From positions 1 through 25,673 of IMG/VR virus record IMGVR_UViG_3300025669_000176: a DNA stretch of 25,673 nt; one strand, given 5' to 3'. Position 1 is the first letter of the stretch. Each line of letters starts with the position of its first letter. Of this stretch, positions 862 to 25,673 are shown piece by piece. The DNA is from a virus. The notes below the pieces were generated by a model. The model was not told the DNA's origin. It did no database searches and was given only the letters and a program-made list of their open reading frames with translations. The translations under genes and the position numbers were made by a program.

Positions 862-2612
862 TAGATGTGTTCCACTATCACCAGTTGAGGATTAAAGAGT
901 ATTCTATCAGCGTGAGTTGCTACTCCGACTATAGTTATACAGTCATCCGTTGCGCTAGGAGCTGTCTGAGTTAGAGTGTTAGTTGTAGTCCCCGTTAGCG
1001 ATAAATAAATAAGCCCACCGACTGTCCAAGCCCATGTATCGTCTCTGGCAAATCCATTTAGCAAATAATCACCGACGGCATCTGCACTGATTGTTGTATC
1101 TGCACACATACCAACCACTTTTGCTGTTGCTATCGCATCTGCATCGGCTAACGCCATTTCACCAGCAGCATCTATGTAACAAACGTCACCAAAGGCTTGC
1201 GCCTCGTTGGCTGTAAAGTCTCCAATTATTCCACTACAAGTATGATCACTGTCTGGGGTTGAATCTATATTCCATTCTGTACCAACCATGCCAGTATCAC
1301 CCTGAGCACCCGTATCCCCTGCAACCGTAGAATCTGCTCCTGTGTCTCCTGTTACACCTGTATCACCTTGGTCTCCAGTATCACCCTTAACTGTAGAGCC
1401 TGCCCCAGTGTCTCCAGCAACCCCAGTATCTCCTGTCACACTCACGCCCGTGTCTCCTTGATCACCAGTTCCTGTGTCTCCTTGATCCCCAGTATCACCT
1501 TTTACAGTAGAATCAGCTCCCGTGTCTCCAGCAACTCCGGTATCACCCTGAGTACCTGTGTCACCTTGATCGCCAACTCCTGTGTCTCCTTGATCTCCGG
1601 TATCTCCTGCAACCGTAGAATCAGCTCCTGTATCTCCTTGCACGCCAGTATCGCCAGCAGAACCTTCACCAACTCCGGTATCACCTTGATCGCCAGTATC
1701 CCCCGCAACCGTAGAATCGGCTCCCGTGTCTCCTTGATCTCCAACTCCGGTATCACCTTGATCGCCAGTATCCCCCGCAACCGTAGAATCGGCTCCCGTG
1801 TCTCCTTGATCTCCAACTCCCGTGTCTCCTTGATCTCCAACTCCCGTATCTCCTTGGTCTCCAGTATCACCCTTAACTGTAGAGTCTGCTCCCGTATCAC
1901 CTACAACCCCTGTATCACCAGCTACAGTTGAATCTGCACCCGTATCTCCTTGATCTCCGGTATCTCCTGCAACCGTAGAATCTGCTCCTGTGTCTCCTTG
2001 ATCTCCGGTATCACCTTGAACTCCCGTGTCGCCTGCAACTGTGGAATCGGCTCCTGTGTCTCCTTTATCACCAACTCCTGTATCTCCTTGGTCTCCTGTA
2101 TCTCCCGCAACTGTGGAGTCGGATCCTGTGTCGCCAACAACCCCAGTGTCTCCTTGATTTCCGGTATCGCCTTGATCCCCAGTTCCCGTGTCACCCTGAT
2201 CCCCAGTATCTCCTTGCACCGTTGAATCTGCTCCTGTGTCGCCTTGAGTTCCTGTATCGCCTCGATCCCCAACACCGCCTTGAGACCCCGTGTCCCCAAC
2301 CTGTGTCAATAAATCCCAATCAATTGCCGCACCAGAAGGTTCCTCAACGGTAGAAGCCGCATTAACAATCCAAGCAGAACCATTATGTTCCACCGCTTGT
2401 TTATAAGTATAGGTTCCGGCAGACCACGCACCTTCCCACCCTATTCCGGAAGCAAGCGAGGCCCAATAAGTAGCGTTCGGGGGTTCGTTTCCTGTATTAT
2501 CGGCGATACACGCATAACTGCTCGAAAGGTGATCTACAATATCACCAATCGTAAAACTAATAGCTATATCCCAAGGACCTTTGGCTAAATCTGAAAATAA
2601 TTTATTACTCAT
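861..2612 (-). CDS. Collagen-like phage fibre protein with N-terminal carbohydrate-binding-like repeats
   Basis: The 583-aa protein has three parts. Residues 1-100 hold two short aromatic modules resembling carbohydrate-binding type 5/12 domains ([19 protein letters not shown] ending in YW, then [18 protein letters not shown]). Residues about 105-440 are a Gly-X-Y collagen-like stalk dominated by GDT, GDQ, GAD and GVG triplets, broken at intervals by STVA/STVK. It has almost no proline. Residues about 441-583 form a glycine- and threonine-rich beta domain of the kind found at the ends of phage collagen-like fibres. Threonine-rich GDT triplets are also known from Bacillus BclA spore filaments. 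The likely role is a trimeric virion fibre with a distal binding or trimerisation head. The ATG overlaps the end of the upstream HNH gene by 8 nt. Confidence 0.82.
1669..1820. repeat. Perfect 72-bp tandem duplication in the collagen stalk
   Basis: Bases 1669..1748 are identical to 1741..1820, an 80-base match at a 72-bp offset. The unit encodes 24 residues of the GDT-rich stalk, so the duplication keeps frame. The rest of the stalk is made of diverged versions of the same triplets. The exact copy indicates recent slippage or unequal recombination. Confidence 0.9.
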
Positions 2613-3114
2613 TATATTCTGTCACCTTTCTACAATGATCTATGAAATCTTTTACCGAATATTTAAATTTCATTCTATTACAGATATCACAACAAGGCAC
2701 TGAATTTTCTTTAAGATATCCTAACGTATTGTCCATCCTATCCACACCTGTACTGGTACTCGAACCACAATAATAACAATCATTTTCCATAAGATACGTA
2801 AATTCACTTAAGGTTAAATCGAATAAGAGTCCTCTTCTTTTAGCGCCATGTTTATATTGAGCATATTTTCCTTTAATACTTTTATTATTAAACATACTAT
2901 ATTCTCGTCCTGATTTTCTAAGTTTCTCCCTGTTGTTTTCTCTATACTTCTTCTTATATTCTTTCACTTCTTCCACATTATTTTCTGCCCACTCTTTATT
3001 CTTTTTATCAAAATATCCCTTATTCTTCTGATAATATTCTGCCTTTGTAGGCTTTAATCTGGCCTTATTCTGTTTATACCACTTTTTCTTATATTCTTTT
3101 TGACTTTTACGCAC
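2605..3114 (-). CDS. HNH endonuclease (zinc-binding, homing type)
   Basis: This 169-aa protein has a very basic N-terminal half (residues 1-75) of repeated [20 protein letters not shown] segments, likely for DNA contact. A C-terminal HNH domain follows at about 105-165 with the zinc ligands CYYCG and CCDICN, and GVDRMDN and [10 protein letters not shown] as the catalytic region. This matches the compact HNH family common as free-standing homing endonucleases in phages. The start is a GTG nine bases after the stop of the 64-aa gene. The 3' end overlaps the start of the collagen-like fibre gene by 8 nt (ATGAGTAA). It lies inside the structural cluster without any structural role, which suggests a mobile insertion. 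Confidence 0.85.
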
Positions 3115-4887: not shown

Positions 4888-6039
4888 TTAGTAGCTACTT
4901 ACATCTTGCTGGAGTCTAACCATCAAGAGTGCGCCGTCATCAAATGTCTCGGTACCGACACCGATTATGCCCTTAGATAGGTCGGCAAATCCCTTTTCCT
5001 TATCGGAAACTTTTAAGTCCATAAACTGTAGCACTAAATCAATAGCACCGCGGATCATAAACACAGATTCCTGAATTTGAAGGCTCCAAGCATCTGTTAA
5101 GTCTGAAAGATCTTCAGAAACAGAAATATCTCCGAACCCTGTGAATAACATTCCTTCAGCAGAGGTACAAGAGATTCTTCGTTTTCTACTAAGCAAGAAA
5201 CGATCTCTAGCAGCTAACTGGATGTATTCAGTTCCTACGGCTCCGTTAGTAACAGCTAAAGTCAAATTTGCTCTCGAATTGGCTACGCCAGCACCAATAT
5301 GGACATGACCTGCCGTAGCAATTGTGTCCTTAAAGGTAAACGTAACACCTGAAATTACAACAGTATCGCCATCAGTTGGCTTTGTTGCAATTGTTAGTGT
5401 TGCTGACCAAGGTAGATTGTTGTTCTGCACAACAGTCCATCCCTGCCATGGCCCTACGACGCCATTTTGCAACACTGAGTCTCCTAAACTTGTTTCTCTT
5501 TCACTCTTAGCTCTACGTAACCTAGCAACTGTGCGGGGCCCTAAGACCGCAGCACGTAACGAAGTTTCATAAGGAGCATCAAAAGCACCAAGCTTTCCTT
5601 CTGCTTCTTCCAATATGTCCAAAATGTTCACCGAGGAAACGTCCACGGGAGCATTAGAAATATTATGTTTAGCATTGGAGATCTCACTAAGGAAAATTTG
5701 TTCGACCCTGTTGGACAATCCACGTCTAATAGACATTAAGGAATGTTCAAGAAGATTATAGGGAGTTTGCTTTTCTTCAGTTACATCTATATCCTCAGCA
5801 GCATACTCAAAAGTATCGACTGTCAAGGTTTGTTTTGTAGCTGTTTTAGTCTCAAATGAAATATCACTATGAGGCGTGTAAGTCCCTACTTGTGGATGAG
5901 TTAAGATCGGCCTGTGGGCCTTGTATCCGTTCTCACTTATAAGTTGTTCGAGTGTTTGGTTAGCAAGATATACCGCAGTATTCATTACAAATAGATCTGC
6001 TTGTAAATCTCCCCAAAACTCAAGTCTTGCATCATTCAT
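4888..6039 (-). CDS. Major capsid protein with inserted domain
   Basis: The 383-aa protein sits directly after the scaffold and before the decoration gene, the standard place for the coat protein. The N-terminal part (GYKAHRPILTHPQVGTYTPHSDISFE, then FEYAAEDIDVTEEKQTPYNLL) and the C-terminal ISVSEDLSDLTDAWSLQIQESVFMIRGAIDLVL fit an HK97-fold, P22-coat-like protein. Residues about 211-297 look like an extra beta domain (TKPTDGDTVVISGVTFTF, ANSRANLTLAV, LLSRKRRISCT) of a type also found elsewhere in phage proteins. Its position is comparable to the I-domain of P22 coat. Start: ATG at 6039 with only a weak Shine-Dalgarno. A TATAAT box lies about 55 bases upstream. Confidence 0.75.
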   Translation of the reverse strand: MNDARLEFWGDLQADLFVMNTAVYLANQTLEQLISENGYKAHRPILTHPQVGTYTPHSDISFETKTATKQTLTVDTFEYAAEDIDVTEEKQTPYNLLEHSLMSIRRGLSNRVEQIFLSEISNAKHNISNAPVDVSSVNILDILEEAEGKLGAFDAPYETSLRAAVLGPRTVARLRRAKSERETSLGDSVLQNGVVGPWQGWTVVQNNNLPWSATLTIATKPTDGDTVVISGVTFTFKDTIATAGHVHIGAGVANSRANLTLAVTNGAVGTEYIQLAARDRFLLSRKRRISCTSAEGMLFTGFGDISVSEDLSDLTDAWSLQIQESVFMIRGAIDLVLQFMDLKVSDKEKGFADLSKGIIGVGTETFDDGALLMVRLQQDVSSY

Positions 6040-6091
6040 ACAAATAAACTTTCTTTAAATAAATTAATTTAACTGAATTTAGAGGGGAGAA

Positions 6092-6097
6092 ATTATA
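6092..6097 (-). promoter_or_regulatory. Candidate -10 box for the capsid gene
   Basis: A perfect TATAAT on the minus strand lies immediately after the scaffold stop, about 53 bases before the capsid ATG. No convincing -35 box is seen at 16-18 bases. Extra transcription of the capsid gene would make sense, but the support is a single hexamer in AT-rich DNA. Confidence 0.35.
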
Positions 6098-6098
6098 G

Positions 6099-6773
6099 TT
6101 ACAGGCCTTGTGTTTTCATATAAGCCGCTCTGGCGGCTTTCGTTTTATTCCAATCATTCACACCTTCCTTAGTACCAAAATTAAAGTTGGCAGGATCCAA
6201 CGGTTTAGACAAATCCACATTACCCGAATAAGAACCTTCATTTCCACGTTTAGGACTAGCAGCTTTTATGCGCTCGTCTTTATTAAATTGCTCTACTCGA
6301 AAAACGACATAAGGCAACTTAAACGCTTCCCTCACAGATAACCCTTTGGCTTTGGCTAGTTCCTTGACCTCTGTTTCGATTTCCTCTGGTAGATTAAGAT
6401 CTTTTAAATCTCTTTCTTCCATGATCTCTGAAACCTTTTGACCAACGACACTAGTTAAATCAGCAGAATCACCTTTATTTTCGGGCTTTGCCCCGCCATC
6501 ATCTTGTGGTGGCTTTTGTTCAGCAGTTTTAGCCTCGGCACGGCCGCGCCATTTTATCTTTTGCTTAATAGCACCGGACAATTTAGAACGACTTTCCTTT
6601 TCACGCGTAACGAATTTGTCAAGAAGGTCGCCTTCAAGTTCGGGATCTATTCCCATACTTTCGGCAAGTTGCCCTCTTAAATCTTCGTCTTTAACTTCTG
6701 CTAGAGCCTCCTGTTCAGCTTTTTGCTCCTCGGGAGACATTTCGAGGTTTTCGTCTTTGTTTTTTTCGTCCAT
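6099..6773 (-). CDS. Capsid scaffold protein
   Basis: This 224-aa protein is strongly acidic at its N-terminus (MDEKNKDENLEMSPEEQKAE), highly charged throughout and predicted helical. A low-complexity middle (EQKPPQDDGGAKPENKG) precedes a basic C-terminal segment ending in NDWNKTKAARAAYMKTQGL. Scaffolding proteins typically show this pattern, with a basic helical C-terminus that contacts the coat protein. It lies directly upstream of the major capsid gene. Sequence alone does not prove the function, but position, size and composition agree. Confidence 0.75.
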   Translation of the reverse strand: MDEKNKDENLEMSPEEQKAEQEALAEVKDEDLRGQLAESMGIDPELEGDLLDKFVTREKESRSKLSGAIKQKIKWRGRAEAKTAEQKPPQDDGGAKPENKGDSADLTSVVGQKVSEIMEERDLKDLNLPEEIETEVKELAKAKGLSVREAFKLPYVVFRVEQFNKDERIKAASPKRGNEGSYSGNVDLSKPLDPANFNFGTKEGVNDWNKTKAARAAYMKTQGL

Positions 6774-10077: not shown

Positions 10078-12171
10078 TTATGGTTTTAACCGCTTTCTGA
10101 CTAATTCTTCTTTTCGTTCTTCCAAAGTTTTTACAGTTCTCGGCTTTCTAAAGCCATATTCCTTAAAGATTTTCTTTTTCAACGCATCTCTAGAACTAGA
10201 TTTCAATTTTTCTTTGCTACCATCCGACAATTCCTTATATTCCTGAGTCTTGCGAACTTCGTCAAACCAAATATTGTAAGCTCTATTATAGTTATTATTT
10301 GCTTCTTTAAACTTTTCTTCACCAACTTTTTCTTTAAATTGTTTCATTTCCTCACTAGTACTAGACTCCCAATTACTTCCATACTTATAAGTTGATACAC
10401 TCAAACCAAGAAACTCCGAAATGGTAGTAGCGAAAATCACTTCAAATTTTTCGTCTTTAACATCACCTATCGCCTGTAAAGATAAGGGGGTAACCGAATT
10501 TGTTATAGACTTTTCGATATTAAAAGGTTCCCCACCAAACATTTCTCCCCTGTAATAATCTCGTATAATAGATGCTACAGGCGCTAATTTATTTGAAAAA
10601 ACTCCATCTATAAATAAATCAAAAGCATCCTGCTGACCATACTCTCCTGCTGTTAAATTAGTCCACCTACCTGTAGACGCCTTTTTCCAAACTCCCCACT
10701 CCCCATTATGTTTTGTTGGCATAAGTCTCGCGGCCAACCTAGCAAGAGAACTCATACCACCAGTAATATCAACCCACTTTCCAAATATCTTCAATCTTCC
10801 GAAATTGGTACTTCTAGGATCCTCGTCAACAGAATCCGGATCTAAGAATTTTGCAAGCATAAAAATAGTTCCTAAATGCCCTACTATACTCACTAGATTC
10901 TTTCTAGCTTGGGTTTTAGTAAATGGGGTGGCTTGAGGATCGAATTGATGCGCTGTTAACGTATCAATGTTAGCTTTGAAGAATCTAAGAGACCAAAACA
11001 CAAAATTCAATTTCTTCTGAGTTTCAGCAGTCATGGCAACAGAACCTCTACCTGTTAAAGACCCGACTAAATGCCCTGCCCCCCTCGCCTCCGCAGGATC
11101 TAAAGTATTTAAACCCTGCTTATCCATCATGGATATAAACATATCCGCAAGATCGGCTCTCATTCGTAATGCTCCGCCACTAAAAGCGGTTTCAGATGCC
11201 CTAAATAATCTTCCTAATCCCGGAATCTTCTCGGGAATAGAAGTTGGAAATATTTCCTCATTTGTCACTCCCAACTGATAATTTCCGGCTTTATACTTAC
11301 CGTTAATACTATTAGGACGCGAATAAATATCGGCTCGCACAAAATCCATGGGTTCAAAACCATCTATCTTTTTTGCCTGTAACTCAGCTCCAATATCCTT
11401 AAAAGACTTAACAAGGTTTTGTGTCCATATTCTTTTCTGCTCTAACGAACCATAAAGATTCTTTATACCTTGTCTCCCAAAAAAACTATTATCAATAGAA
11501 GCCATTAATGACTTTCCAAGGTTGTTTAAAAATACCGGGGCTTCTTTTATCGGGGTTAGCAGGGCGTTCACGGGATCTTCTGTAAACTTAACTCGCCTGT
11601 TTTTCGCTTCCAATTTTATTTCTTTTATATAATTTTCTAAAGCAACCTGTTTTAATCCATACTTCAATCTTTTTGAATCATTGACCCATTCTTTTTTAGT
11701 ACCTTGCGGATCGTTTTCCCAGCCCGGGTTATCCCTTAATTTCTGTTCCCAATCACCACGAGATTCCGAAGTTTCCTGTGCCATTTGATTTATATGTTTT
11801 GCTTCTTCAAAAGTTATACCTACACCTAATCTACTTCTCGCCAAATCTTCTTTAAAGCCTTCTAAATTTTTTGGATCTAGAACTCCAATATCTTGCAAGC
11901 GTTCTATCTTTGAAATTATGTCTCGCTTCACTTTAGGAGTCATTCCCAATGCCCTTTTAGCCCAATTCTTAAAACCAGTAACCTGATTTTTCGAGAGTAA
12001 TTTACTTTCGTAAAGGGCATTAATCTTTAAAGCATTTTCGGGATCAACAAATCGTTCAAAAAGAGTTCTTCTTTGCTCACTAGACATTTCTGTCAGCTTA
12101 AAGGGATTTATTTTTTTGCTAACTAGAGCTTCTCTAAACTTAGCTTCTTGATTTTTAGTTAAACACCACAT
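10078..12171 (-). CDS. Large internal virion protein (LPD-type)
   Basis: The 697-aa protein begins MWCLTKNQEAKF. A charged helical N-terminal third includes VLDPKNLEGFKEDLARSRLG followed by VGITFEEAKHINQMAQ, typical of large polyvalent protein-associated phage proteins. The middle has aromatic and hydrophobic stretches (FVFWSLRFFKANIDTL, LVSIVGHLGTIFMLAKFL) that could insert into membranes. A basic helical tail ends in KKKIFKEYGFRKPR. Such proteins are thought to be packaged in the capsid or tail and ejected with the DNA in podoviruses (inference). The ATG lies inside the last 13 bases of the HNH gene. Confidence 0.7.
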   Translation of the reverse strand: MWCLTKNQEAKFREALVSKKINPFKLTEMSSEQRRTLFERFVDPENALKINALYESKLLSKNQVTGFKNWAKRALGMTPKVKRDIISKIERLQDIGVLDPKNLEGFKEDLARSRLGVGITFEEAKHINQMAQETSESRGDWEQKLRDNPGWENDPQGTKKEWVNDSKRLKYGLKQVALENYIKEIKLEAKNRRVKFTEDPVNALLTPIKEAPVFLNNLGKSLMASIDNSFFGRQGIKNLYGSLEQKRIWTQNLVKSFKDIGAELQAKKIDGFEPMDFVRADIYSRPNSINGKYKAGNYQLGVTNEEIFPTSIPEKIPGLGRLFRASETAFSGGALRMRADLADMFISMMDKQGLNTLDPAEARGAGHLVGSLTGRGSVAMTAETQKKLNFVFWSLRFFKANIDTLTAHQFDPQATPFTKTQARKNLVSIVGHLGTIFMLAKFLDPDSVDEDPRSTNFGRLKIFGKWVDITGGMSSLARLAARLMPTKHNGEWGVWKKASTGRWTNLTAGEYGQQDAFDLFIDGVFSNKLAPVASIIRDYYRGEMFGGEPFNIEKSITNSVTPLSLQAIGDVKDEKFEVIFATTISEFLGLSVSTYKYGSNWESSTSEEMKQFKEKVGEEKFKEANNNYNRAYNIWFDEVRKTQEYKELSDGSKEKLKSSSRDALKKKIFKEYGFRKPRTVKTLEERKEELVRKRLKP

Positions 12172-12800
12172 TTTAATTCAATCCTTTCTGTAAATTCCTC
12201 TATTTGATCGATATCATTATTTGTGTTTCCATATATCTGATGAAATTTCCTATGACATATTATACAAAAGGTTATTCCATTATCTATAGCAAATCTCAAA
12301 TCCCCCTCCTCCGCAAAATTTCTAATATGATGTGGGTGTAACTTAATCCCCCCTCTGTTACTACATTTCTGACAAGTCCAATTATCCCTAGCAAAGACAG
12401 CTTCTCTCCACAAACGATATTCCACTCGTTTTCTCCAAATCTTACTTTCATCTGTCTTTCCTTGTCCTCTCCCCCTATTTGCCTTACTTATCTTTTTTCT
12501 TGTTTCTTCCGAATGTCTATACCCCTTACGAGATTCCTGTATTTTATTTATATGTTCTTTAGTAAGCTTCCTACCCCTCAATGCTATCCCAAGTAATAAA
12601 TTTTTCCTACCTTTCAGGGCCAAACTAATTTTATTTTTTGTTTTCTGAGACAATTTACTACCTTTTCTGTTAGTATTTCCCTTCAAAGAACGACTAATTT
12701 TAGCATTCCTTACCTTTGATTTATGCATAGGATGCCCCGTCAAAGCTTTACTAATATTTTCATTATGTTTCTTTGTTCTTTTGTATATTCCTAATGGCAT
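12159..12800 (-). CDS. NUMOD3/HNH homing endonuclease
   Basis: The N-terminal two thirds (residues 1-115) carry several NUMOD3-like DNA-binding repeats: ENISKALTGHP, AKISRSLKGN, NKISLALKGRK, HINKIQESRKG, KKISKANRGRG. The C-terminal HNH domain holds CQKCSNRGGIKLHPHHIRNF and CIICHRKFHQIYG, giving two CxxC zinc knuckles and the HH catalytic pair. I chose the ATG at 12800 over a TTG at 12815 because it starts at MPLGIYKRTKK, a usual start in this family. The gene is wedged between two large virion genes with 18 bases on one side and a 13-nt overlap on the other, as expected for a mobile insertion. Confidence 0.9.
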   Translation of the reverse strand: MPLGIYKRTKKHNENISKALTGHPMHKSKVRNAKISRSLKGNTNRKGSKLSQKTKNKISLALKGRKNLLLGIALRGRKLTKEHINKIQESRKGYRHSEETRKKISKANRGRGQGKTDESKIWRKRVEYRLWREAVFARDNWTCQKCSNRGGIKLHPHHIRNFAEEGDLRFAIDNGITFCIICHRKFHQIYGNTNNDIDQIEEFTERIELKCGV

Positions 12801-12818
12801 ATTAATTATTCCCAAACA

Positions 12819-22997: not shown

Positions 22998-23190
22998 AGT
23001 GAACAAATTCTACCATTTCATACGGTTTTACAAACTCAAGCTTAGAAGTCAGGTAGCCGTCGTCAATAACATCCTGCAACAGACCGCACCTAAAAATAGG
23101 AACGTCCCGAAGGCTAGCGGCAACATCTTCATCAGGAATCAAATCTAAAAGATGTATGCCCAACTTTGTAGCTAATTGCCCGAAAGTCAT
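22981..23190 (-). CDS. Small hypothetical protein (69 aa)
   Basis: The ATG overlaps the stop of the ArdC-N-like gene (ATGA), indicating translational coupling. The protein starts MTFGQLATKLGIHLLDLIPD, which could form a helix-turn-helix-like pair. It continues with VPIFRCGLLQDVIDDG and an acidic, aromatic C-terminus (KPYEMVEFVHYEGSN). I do not recognise a family. It belongs to the same operon as the antirestriction-like gene and the 48-aa gene. Confidence 0.6.
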   Translation of the reverse strand: MTFGQLATKLGIHLLDLIPDEDVAASLRDVPIFRCGLLQDVIDDGYLTSKLEFVKPYEMVEFVHYEGSN

Positions 23191-23474
23191 GCCGGCACCT
23201 TCTCCAGTAGATCCTCATTAAACACCACAAAATAGATGGGCCGACTTACCGCCTCGCTTTTATTCGTAACTTTGTTGAACTCCATATCTTTCGCGAATGT
23301 TCTCAAATGTACCCCGCATCCCTTGGCGTTTACTAGCTTCCTGTGGGCTGTCATAGCTTGTACAAAAGTCAGCCAATTATCAGAAGTATATTTTTTCCCC
23401 GCCTTAACCTGAAGTAGTTCTACTTGGTTTCTGCCCTTGTAGGCAATACCTGTTGTCAAATTTCTTTGTAGCAT
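23187..23474 (-). CDS. Standalone ArdC N-terminal-like (ssDNA-binding, antirestriction) protein
   Basis: The pattern NLTTGIAYKGRNQVELL, SDNWLTFVQAMTAHRKLV, KGCGVHLRTF, PIYFVVFNEDLLE follows the order of the ArdC N-terminal domain (DUF1738 type: N..TG..Y.G.N, W.TF.QA, KG..G, F..FN..L). ArdC proteins block restriction enzymes, and this domain binds single-stranded DNA. The C-terminal metalloprotease domain of full ArdC is absent: the product is only 95 aa. I chose the ATG at 23474 because AAAGGA sits nine bases upstream and the domain begins there. An ATG at 23492 and a TTG at 23534 are possible longer starts. Confidence 0.65.
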   Translation of the reverse strand: MLQRNLTTGIAYKGRNQVELLQVKAGKKYTSDNWLTFVQAMTAHRKLVNAKGCGVHLRTFAKDMEFNKVTNKSEAVSRPIYFVVFNEDLLEKVPA

Positions 23475-23494
23475 TCTTGCTTTTCCTTTCATTT

Positions 23495-23551
23495 GGTAGG
23501 CTCGAGGACTGACGCTCTCCAGCCTACCCGTCAATCAAATGTTTGTCAGTC
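23495..23551 (-). promoter_or_regulatory. Structured 5' region with competing stems before the ArdC-N-like gene
   Basis: In RNA order (minus strand) are GACTGAC (23545-23551), GATTGACG (23529-23536), GGTAGGCT (23521-23528), CGTCAGTC (23507-23514) and AGCCTACC (23495-23502). The third and fifth form a perfect 8-bp stem. The fourth lies in its loop and can pair with either the first (7 bp) or the second (8 bp with one G-U). The last arm ends five bases before the Shine-Dalgarno AAAGGA. The arrangement suggests alternative folds that control translation. Confidence 0.5.
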
Positions 23552-24084: not shown

Positions 24085-24104
24085 AGTGCAACTACCGTTG
24101 CACT
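24085..24104. repeat. Perfect hairpin at the stop codon of the 73-aa gene
   Basis: AGTGCAAC (24085-24092) and GTTGCACT (24097-24104) form an 8-bp stem with a TACC loop spanning the TAG stop. No T-run follows on the minus strand, so an intrinsic terminator is not supported. It lies between the upstream gene and the strong promoter at 24061 and could insulate the two. Confidence 0.6.
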
Positions 24105-24313
24105 ATCCATTCGACACCAAACTCAAATAACAGAAACCTGTTACCGTAACACAAAAAAACCTCCGAAAACCCACGGCTAACGCCGAGCTTCTTTAATTCT
24201 AAAAAAACAGGCTCGCAAGCATCTGCGACCCGTATACGTTTCGCATTATTTTTTTGTCTAGCATAGATCTTATGCAACTTAAATAACTTATCTAACAAAT
24301 CTCTTTTAGTCAT
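24092..24313 (-). CDS. Small hypothetical protein (73 aa)
   Basis: The ATG overlaps the stop of the 81-aa gene by 8 nt, a sign of coupled translation. The protein starts with a basic helix (MTKRDLLDKLFKLHKIYARQ) and ends with aromatic beta-like segments (SEVFLCYGNRFLLFEFGVEW). I do not recognise a family. A role in early phage functions is suggested only by its place next to the replication gene. Confidence 0.6.
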   Translation of the reverse strand: MTKRDLLDKLFKLHKIYARQKNNAKRIRVADACEPVFLELKKLGVSRGFSEVFLCYGNRFLLFEFGVEWIVQR

Positions 24314-24551
24314 CTGCGACCACCTTAAATTTCTCTAACTTGATACCCTTGGAAATAGCTTTAGAATAATTATGCTTAAAAATATCAGGACTAAACACAG
24401 CCACATTCCAATCACCGGTAGTTTCATTTTTACGATTCACTAAAATAAAACCGCCTGTAGAAATAAACCTCTCCTTACATTCATTGTTAAAAAATAATTT
24501 CCTCAAAAATAAACGTCTATTCTTTCTCGTATTTACAACTGCATTACTCAT
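24306..24551 (-). CDS. Small hypothetical protein (81 aa)
   Basis: The protein is basic at the start (MSNAVVNTRKNRRLFLRKLF) and beta-rich later (ERFISTGGFILVNRKNETTG, DWNVAVFSPDIF). No family is recognised. There is no Shine-Dalgarno before the ATG; instead a consensus promoter places the predicted transcription start at the start codon itself. The first codons (ATGAGTAAT) also resemble the repeat motif of the upstream non-coding region. Confidence 0.6.
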   Translation of the reverse strand: MSNAVVNTRKNRRLFLRKLFFNNECKERFISTGGFILVNRKNETTGDWNVAVFSPDIFKHNYSKAISKGIKLEKFKVVADD

Positions 24552-24586: not shown

Positions 24587-24626
24587 GAGGAGTATACACA
24601 CCCCCCTATAAACACAATACTATTGG

Positions 24627-24892
24627 ATGTCGTTATATGACGTTACTCATGAGTAGCTTTCGCCAATAATCGTGAGTAGCTTTTTATCTGATAACAAAGC
24701 CCAAAAACAACAACGTTACTCATTACTCACACTCTCCTAAAGGAGAGATGATGAGTAACGTTTCGTAAGACGTTGGAGGTTTGAGGAGTATTATGAGGAG
24801 TATTTCTAATAAACAGCCCCACGAGAGCATTTCCACAATGCTACTCATGAGTAGCATTCTTGAGTAACGTGAGTAACGTTAAATAACGACAT
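24627..24892. repeat. TGAGTARC repeat and palindrome array (candidate origin or operator cluster)
   Basis: The 342-base gap 24552-24893 holds no believable gene. Within it TGAGTARC occurs nine times: plus strand at 24650, 24673, 24752, 24848, 24861 and 24870; minus strand at 24642, 24715 and 24840. A perfect 22-bp palindrome spans 24837-24858. AACGTTACTCAT (24712-24723) pairs with ATGAGTAACGTT (24751-24762) around a CTCTCCT/AGGAGAG hairpin (24732-24747). The array is framed by ATGTCGTTAT (24627-24636) and its inverse ATAACGACAT (24883-24892). TGAGGAGTATT is directly repeated at 24782 and 24794. It adjoins the helicase gene. Confidence 0.8.
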
Positions 24893-24893
24893 C

Positions 24894-25673
24894 TTAGAAC
24901 AGTCCGCCCCCAACATCGTCCCTTTCTACTATAGGATTACCTAAAAAGAACCATGACTCTCGCCCTTTCTTACTTTTTACAATTGTTTTTGCTTCCGTCA
25001 TATCCTTTAGAGTTCTATCAGCTGTCGATCTTGAAACGCCCCCGGCACTGACTGTTTCCAATAAAATTTGCCTACTCATTCCATTATTAGAGTCGGCTAG
25101 CGCCGCAGTGATTATTTCTTCCGCTTCTTCTGCTTTCTTTGAATCATCACTAATAACAACCCCTAAATAAGTAAAACCTGTGACAGTAGTTTTACCTTCT
25201 TTATCAGGGTTAGGAATAACATCCATTCTAATCATGAACTTATCTAATTTTTGTTCGTCTCTAGTCTTAGTCTGCTCTAGTGTCATTTCAGTTTTAGATT
25301 TGGCAACTGTTTCTAGTCTGAACATTGTAAAAGTTTGCGCGTTGATGTTGGAAGAACCTCGGAGACGCTGCCCGGAGTTTCTGTATACGCCTTGGGATGG
25401 CTTGTTTTCGTGATGTAGAACTAGGAATGCTATGCCGGGAAATAATTGTTTAAGTGCTTCGAAAAATCTTTGAGTATCTTCTGCGGAATTTGCGGAACCG
25501 ATCATTAAATCTACAAAGGAATCTATAACAATGAGACCGATTTCTTTTTGTTCTACAATTTTAGAAATGTCTGCGGCGAATTGAGAGAGGCCGCCCTTGC
25601 CGTTATGGAGTGCAAAAAGATTTGGCTCTTTTAACCAGTGCAGATTTTTAGGAATACCTTTTAAACCCAGTGC
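24894..25673 (-). CDS. RecA-like replicative helicase/ATPase (RepA/AAA_25 type), 5' end outside window
   Basis: The visible 259 residues run in from the window edge, so the true start and the Walker A region lie outside. Visible motifs are a Walker B (GLIVIDSFVDLMIGSANSAE), FFEALKQLFPGIAFLVLHHE followed by NKPSQGVYRNSGQRLRGSS (the loop typical of RepA/AAA_25 ring ATPases), and strand segments TFTMFRLETV and FMIRMDVIPN. The last 75 residues form a winged helix (SNNGMSRQILLETVSAGGVS, RSTADRTLKDMTEAKTIVKS), probably for DNA binding. The gene likely encodes the phage replicative helicase or a related recombination ATPase. The TGAGTARC array begins at its stop codon. Confidence 0.8.
   Translation of the reverse strand, partial: ALGLKGIPKNLHWLKEPNLFALHNGKGGLSQFAADISKIVEQKEIGLIVIDSFVDLMIGSANSAEDTQRFFEALKQLFPGIAFLVLHHENKPSQGVYRNSGQRLRGSSNINAQTFTMFRLETVAKSKTEMTLEQTKTRDEQKLDKFMIRMDVIPNPDKEGKTTVTGFTYLGVVISDDSKKAEEAEEIITAALADSNNGMSRQILLETVSAGGVSRSTADRTLKDMTEAKTIVKSKKGRESWFFLGNPIVERDDVGGGLF

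Follow-up and report, generated by a model that had tools for sequence, protein, structure and literature searches.

A candidate iteron origin behind a phage primase-helicase gene, probably read by the helicase's own winged helix

The usual view of T7-type primase-helicases is that something else (transcription, an initiator or a loader) takes them to an origin. In phage lambda, the O protein is an initiator that reads iterons and is type-specific among relatives; the origin is located within gene O itself, and DnaB of the host serves as the helicase. RepA of the PLEs, satellites found in Vibrio, is an initiator and not a helicase, and the alpha protein of P4 has a C-terminal winged helix-turn-helix (wHTH) and belongs to helicase superfamily SF3.

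Helicases with a C-terminal domain that reads an adjacent origin are already known (SaPI Rep, Cch2, P4 alpha and pRN1), all of them from helicase superfamilies other than the one described here. SaPI Rep and SCCmec Cch2 use their C-terminal domains to recognize iterons that immediately follow the genes encoding them (PMC7581432), and in pRN1 the origin is found downstream of a rep gene encoding a protein with a wHTH at its end (PMC4234260). Passages in two papers portray P4 alpha as a single polypeptide that primes, unwinds and recognizes iterons, with a primase of the bacterial TOPRIM type (PMC4234260; Ziegelin 1993, as cited in PMC8965321). In the RepA/ori modules of PLEs, the DNA-binding domain of the initiator and the iterons covary and are exchanged, and an origin-directed nuclease may select for origin change (PMC8263062). 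For phage helicases of the TOPRIM/RecA-fold type, we found no report of a helicase-read array in the open-access literature.

Here we describe a repeat array beside such a gene. The window, that is, the whole stretch of DNA analyzed, is the entire IMG/VR record IMGVR_UViG_3300025669_000176 (25,673 bp), a tailed-phage fragment with terminase and major head protein matches and with structural genes on the minus strand; the phage genome is incomplete. The helicase family has the TOPRIM and RecA-fold helicase parts of T7 gp4, with a predicted wHTH in place of an acidic C-terminal tail that lacks an origin-reading domain. Lambda O is an iteron-reading, type-specific phage protein, as the helicase here may be, but differs in the place of its origin and the source of its helicase. 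As with SaPI Rep and Cch2, the helicase here is an apparent initiator with a putative DNA-reading domain at its C-terminus, and several short iterons come immediately after its gene; those helicases, however, are D5/SF3- or MCM-like AAA+ proteins, whereas the one here combines Toprim_2 and AAA_25 (SF4/RecA fold), and here the sites occupy both strands in head-to-head pairs, with words that switch among close relatives. P4 alpha with ori and crr, as portrayed in the passages above, unites priming, unwinding and iteron reading in one protein as the helicase here may do, but differs in helicase superfamily, words and layout. ORF904 of pRN1 has its origin behind a wHTH-ended rep gene and a palindromic element (PMC4234260), but that origin is one 100-nt stem-loop without iterons, and the protein carries an archaeo-eukaryotic primase and an SF3 helicase. 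The iterons of PLEs covary with their reader domain, as here; two module types have been described there (PMC8263062), compared with more than a dozen words here.

Results

The array and its sites

Working from the letters of the window alone, an earlier note had described nine clustered copies of TGAGTARC on both strands beside a helicase gene, and the count stood: nine exact sites, six on the plus and three on the minus strand, lie at 24642-24877 (236 bp), with none elsewhere in the record and hence none of the equally dense clusters that would have spoken against the note. Shuffles of the whole record held 1.24 sites on average and at most 4, and in none of 500 dinucleotide shuffles did the densest 240-bp cluster exceed two sites, compared with nine observed. 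A tenth TGAGTA core, TGAGTAAT at 24724, lies inside the block and deviates in its last bases, and an eleventh, at 24545, falls at the next gene's start codon. The stretch from the helicase stop (24894) to that gene (24551) is non-coding, and the GC content of the block (39%) is not distinct. The locus thus has one mark of an iteron origin, short repeats clustered far more densely than expected by chance alongside a replication gene. Its features are as follows, with a strand where one applies.

24626-24893: array of nine exact TGAGTARC sites and one further TGAGTA core, lying behind the helicase stop and ahead of the next gene; a candidate origin of replication
24626-24649: left arm of the outer inverted repeat (24 nt, 92% complementary)
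24870-24893: right arm of the outer inverted repeat (24 nt, 92% complementary)
24642-24657: head-to-head site pair with TG ends in contact, GTTACTCA|TGAGTAGC
24673-24680, plus strand: lone TGAGTAGC site
24712-24723 and 24751-24762: long stem-loop, arms paired at 12/12 positions
24715-24722, minus strand: TGAGTAAC site in the left arm of the long stem-loop
24752-24759, plus strand: TGAGTAAC site in the right arm of the long stem-loop
24732-24747: inner hairpin CTCTCCT-AA-AGGAGAG, flanked by two inverted sites
24837-24858: perfect 22-bp palindrome AATGCTACTCATGAGTAGCATT, a head-to-head pair of TGAGTAGCATT sites
24861-24877, plus strand: direct pair of TGAGTAAC sites, 9 bp apart
24306-24551, minus strand: first gene beyond the array, encoding 81 aa without a family match
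24092-24313, minus strand: gene for a 73-aa protein, a relative of which (82 aa) also follows the array in L009 (sequence comparison by eye)

The 22-bp palindrome and the long stem-loop with its inner hairpin were found as the note had described them. The 10-bp repeat that it saw framing the block is real and larger, as listed, but is not a separate element: it arises because the outermost array copies face each other, as they do in 11 of 19 family members.

The helicase and its predicted winged helix

The array does adjoin a helicase gene, as had been claimed. Its product is a TOPRIM/AAA_25 helicase, full-length relatives of which measure 526-562 aa and carry Toprim_2 and AAA_25.

24894-25673, minus strand: TOPRIM-primase/RecA-fold (SF4, RepA-like) helicase, C-terminal 259 aa, the 5' part being lost at the contig end
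24942-25148, minus strand: predicted wHTH at the helicase C-terminus, residues 176-244 (AlphaFold2 model)
24993-25031, minus strand: predicted recognition helix, residues 215-227 (AlphaFold2 model)

AlphaFold2 models the protein as a RecA core followed by the C-terminal wHTH, the latter with helices at residues 176-194, 201-210 and 215-227 and strands at 231-236 and 239-244, and with a pLDDT of ~90 over most of the domain, falling to 74 at one edge and 69 at the other. Residue 3 of a signature S-x-[ST/R]-T is Ser216 (codon 25026-25028), at the start of the recognition helix in this model. Among PDB folds, the core matched KaiC, DnaB and Twinkle, and SmtB covered the stretch presumed to be the wHTH, all with weak E-values. 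At 5862-6155 and 6501-6989 in L009, the CHC2 zinc ribbon of the DnaG type has a small gene of its own that precedes the TOPRIM-helicase gene, with a RuvC-like gene between the two, which makes this a split primase.

Arrays in related genomes

Relatives of the helicase were collected by protein search from IMG/VR and from MAGs of Shapirobacteria and another Patescibacteria group. Most of them (Patescibacteria phages and their kin) carry, just after the helicase, a both-strand array of a word of ~10 bp that begins with TG and differs among genomes. The earlier note had looked to close relatives for conservation of the motif, and TGAGTARC is in fact absent from the two nearest, L009 and L010; an array of another word stands at its place in both, TGACGATAAT behind the helicase of L009 and TGGCATGCTT behind that of L010, after three small genes, each on both strands. 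Absence of the motif from relatives would therefore mislead as an argument against the note, because the position of the array is conserved and its word is not. Words recovered from other relatives by a blind k-mer scan included TGACGACTAT, TTGCAAGTGT, TTGCAACTGT, TGACCAATG, TGAACACTGTT, TGAACACACT, TTGCACAAGT and TTGCAAAAGGT, among others.

Between 5 and 12 copies of one both-strand 7-mer occurred in 21 of the 23 regions tested (20 of the first family and three isolates), a result reached by 0 of 200 shuffles; the arrays of L024 and L062 were not above chance in this test, and that of L053 is very short. The cultured phages with arrays are Roseobacter phages CRP-406 and CRP-831 and Salicola phage CGphi29. 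Close inverted pairs of sites mostly had their TG ends facing, with 35 head-to-head versus 4 tail-to-tail (19 head-to-head after removal of overlapping TTTGCAAA-type pairs). Hairpins flanked by sites, similar to the inner hairpin of the window, recur in several relatives, and we regard them as seen rather than proven because perfect palindromes in the arrays exceed those of shuffles in length by just a modest margin. Several relatives also have, by eye, an AT-rich tract behind the array.

Further Patescibacteria genomes added distant members or none. Many integrated elements in these genomes have one palindrome alone, often with a serine recombinase behind the helicase; in L053, L062, L054, L058, L059 and L065, nothing more than a minimal array or a short palindrome follows the helicase, and several of these elements carry a gene resembling a serine recombinase. 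Elsewhere, a different primase-helicase (745 aa) has nine GTACTTA sites behind its gene (L087, 3506 onward, and likewise L094), and in CRP-406 (L212) the annotated hypothetical gene CRP406_2 (161-487) shares sequence with the array and is perhaps a spurious open reading frame.

As controls we used 54 distant T7-type TOPRIM primase-helicases, none of which had an array of at least five copies in the 450 bp downstream. Many of these proteins end in an acidic tail like that of T7 gp4, a C-terminal wHTH was noticed in none of them (by eye rather than by profile), and a few of the reading frames are short, perhaps encoding only a primase. The tail is not always paired with an array, because L112, L126-L129 and phage Minerva have helicases with wHTH-like tails and no array.

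The GC skew, which the earlier note had proposed to check, is only weakly compatible with an origin at the array. Minima lay within ~0.5-3 kb of the array in three near-full-length relatives and a local turn lay near it in a fourth, but two isolates showed nothing at the array; nor is the skew decisive as proof of an origin, because gene direction also diverges near the array.

Covariation of word and recognition helix

With words oriented TG end first, the first family splits into TGA and TGC/TGG, and this split follows residue 3 of the recognition-helix signature S-x-X-T. TGC or TGG accompanies Arg, and TGA accompanies Ser, Thr, Glu or Lys, in every one of 20 loci (excluding L020, in which the third base is mixed); the words of L010 and L023 read C or G at base 3 in either orientation. 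On a tree built from the RecA core alone, with the wHTH left out and few branches strongly supported, residue 3 and base 3 each change five times, always together, and in the well-supported sister pair L011 (Thr, TGA) and L012 (Arg, TGC) they differ together. Because so few branches are strongly supported, the formal pair test comprises two pairs only, both concordant. The rule was derived after the first loci had been viewed and was fixed before L029, L030, L053, L062 and L077 were found; the genuine later test thus consists of these five loci, all of which fit.

A second family, marine-type primase-helicases of ~620 aa (L091-L125, L143-L210), carries a very regular array within ~150 bp behind the stop, the copies of which change largely in concert. 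Here the word follows residue X of the helix SN-X-A-V. Asn or Lys goes with GAGAAT, with GA in 19/19 non-redundant loci including two SK-K loci; Ala with AAGAAT or CAGAAT (9/9 loci); Thr with nGGAAT (9/10 loci, the exception being L183, with SKT); and Gly with TA (one locus). A change from SN to SK goes with a core of GAC instead of GAA (L180, L183, L185). In a third set (L188-L210), Asn occurs with GTGAAGTA, Lys with GTAAAGTA and Ala with a mixture of CTAAAGTA and GTA. On a tree of DNA that excludes the wHTH, the Asn/Lys trait and GA switch together ten times, and all six supported independent pairs are concordant (sign test, p 0.031). The AlphaFold model of a second-family helicase was poor (pLDDT 45) and was set aside.

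Discussion

The block at 24626-24893 is probably an iteron replication origin bound by the C-terminal wHTH of the adjoining primase-helicase. The earlier note had read iterons beside a helicase as a classic origin layout, and this is the reading best supported by our results. It is now firmer than the argument from layout, because the word covaries with the recognition helix in two helicase families and because distant primase-helicases apparently without a wHTH tail have no arrays. This covariation gives good support to recognition of the iteron word by the helicase's own wHTH; from it we infer physical binding, helicase loading and origin firing at the array. It also makes the helicase itself a more likely binder than the early phage proteins that the note had proposed to test.

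In the mechanism we propose, the wHTHs of several helicase subunits would bind TGAGTA-type half-sites, singly or as head-to-head pairs, and the sites on both strands would seat subunits or rings in both orientations. The palindromes might aid opening or extrusion of the DNA, the RecA-fold ring would need no separate initiator to load on single strands, and priming would fall to the TOPRIM primase part of that protein.

The wHTH might instead bind the array as a regulator, the block being an operator for the operon from 24551 onward rather than an origin, which we consider rather unlikely. The next genes do follow closely behind the array, the 81-aa gene is preceded by a sigma-70-like promoter match at 24586-24558, and several relatives have a TATAG box and an AT-rich tract between array and next gene. 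Promoter matches were not above chance, however, the layout recurs with quite different downstream genes, and DNA-reading domains on replicative helicases have precedents in origin recognition (SaPI Rep, Cch2 and P4 alpha). That another phage protein binds the array (a repressor, a partition protein or the 73-aa protein) and that the helicase is near through gene order only is improbable: operators or partition sites can form arrays of this appearance and the 73-aa protein has its counterpart after the array of L009, but the word tracks the helicase recognition helix in two families with unrelated downstream genes, and arrays are absent behind all 54 control genes.

The 24-nt, 92% outer repeat could also be taken for the ends of a small inserted, MITE-like element. 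By eye, though, no direct target duplication lies beside its arms, the record holds no further copies of the motif and relatives show arrays of other words at this place instead of empty sites, with no clean empty site with target duplication among the relative loci read; we rejected an insertion element, as neither target-site duplication nor other copies were found, and hold it highly improbable. The array lies at the end of a single metagenomic contig, where a chance cluster or an assembly artifact might be suspected, but the 500 shuffles and the same architecture in the isolate genomes CRP-406, CRP-831 and CGphi29 rule this out for practical purposes.

Returning to an origin read by the helicase, word and wHTH are neighbors, and exchange as a cassette may explain some of the joint switches. 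Co-transfer would still mean a working pair, and that separate lineages repeatedly show the same pairing of residue and base argues for the two functioning together. We lean slightly towards a widespread class of phage origin, in which an SF4 primase-helicase reads the iteron array behind its gene through its own winged helix, and in which the word has switched repeatedly, nearly all copies at once, with one to three recognition-helix residues; this would amount to a readable protein-DNA code under strong selection for word change, for example by origin-directed nucleases or competing phages. By analogy with PLEs, attack by an origin-directed nuclease is a candidate reason for the switching.

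The helicase thus appears to bear its own address reader, with the address beside its gene. If true, this would explain how replication starts in small Patescibacteria phages, whose biology is hardly accessible, and would allow origins to be located by sequence alone in the genomes of uncultured phages. The repeated joint switching is a natural data set for the recognition code of winged helices, and it makes the reason for changes of origin word testable.

Other features of the window

The array region had no DNA similarity to isolate phages and matched no RNA family in Rfam. The 73-aa protein and its counterpart in L009 (9157-9405) belong to no PHROGs or Pfam family and are possibly replication accessories; small proteins like them seem, by eye, to begin behind the array in L014, L021 and L025. 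At the other end of the window, a probable tail-fiber gene (861-2612) has collagen-like repeats and adjoins a gene with duplicated LamG-like repeats (1-861), both noted by eye. Two HNH-type endonuclease genes, probably homing by sequence signature, lie at 2605-3114 and 12159-12815, and the gene at 23187-23534 has a weak match to the anti-restriction family phrog_7245 (E 5e-5).
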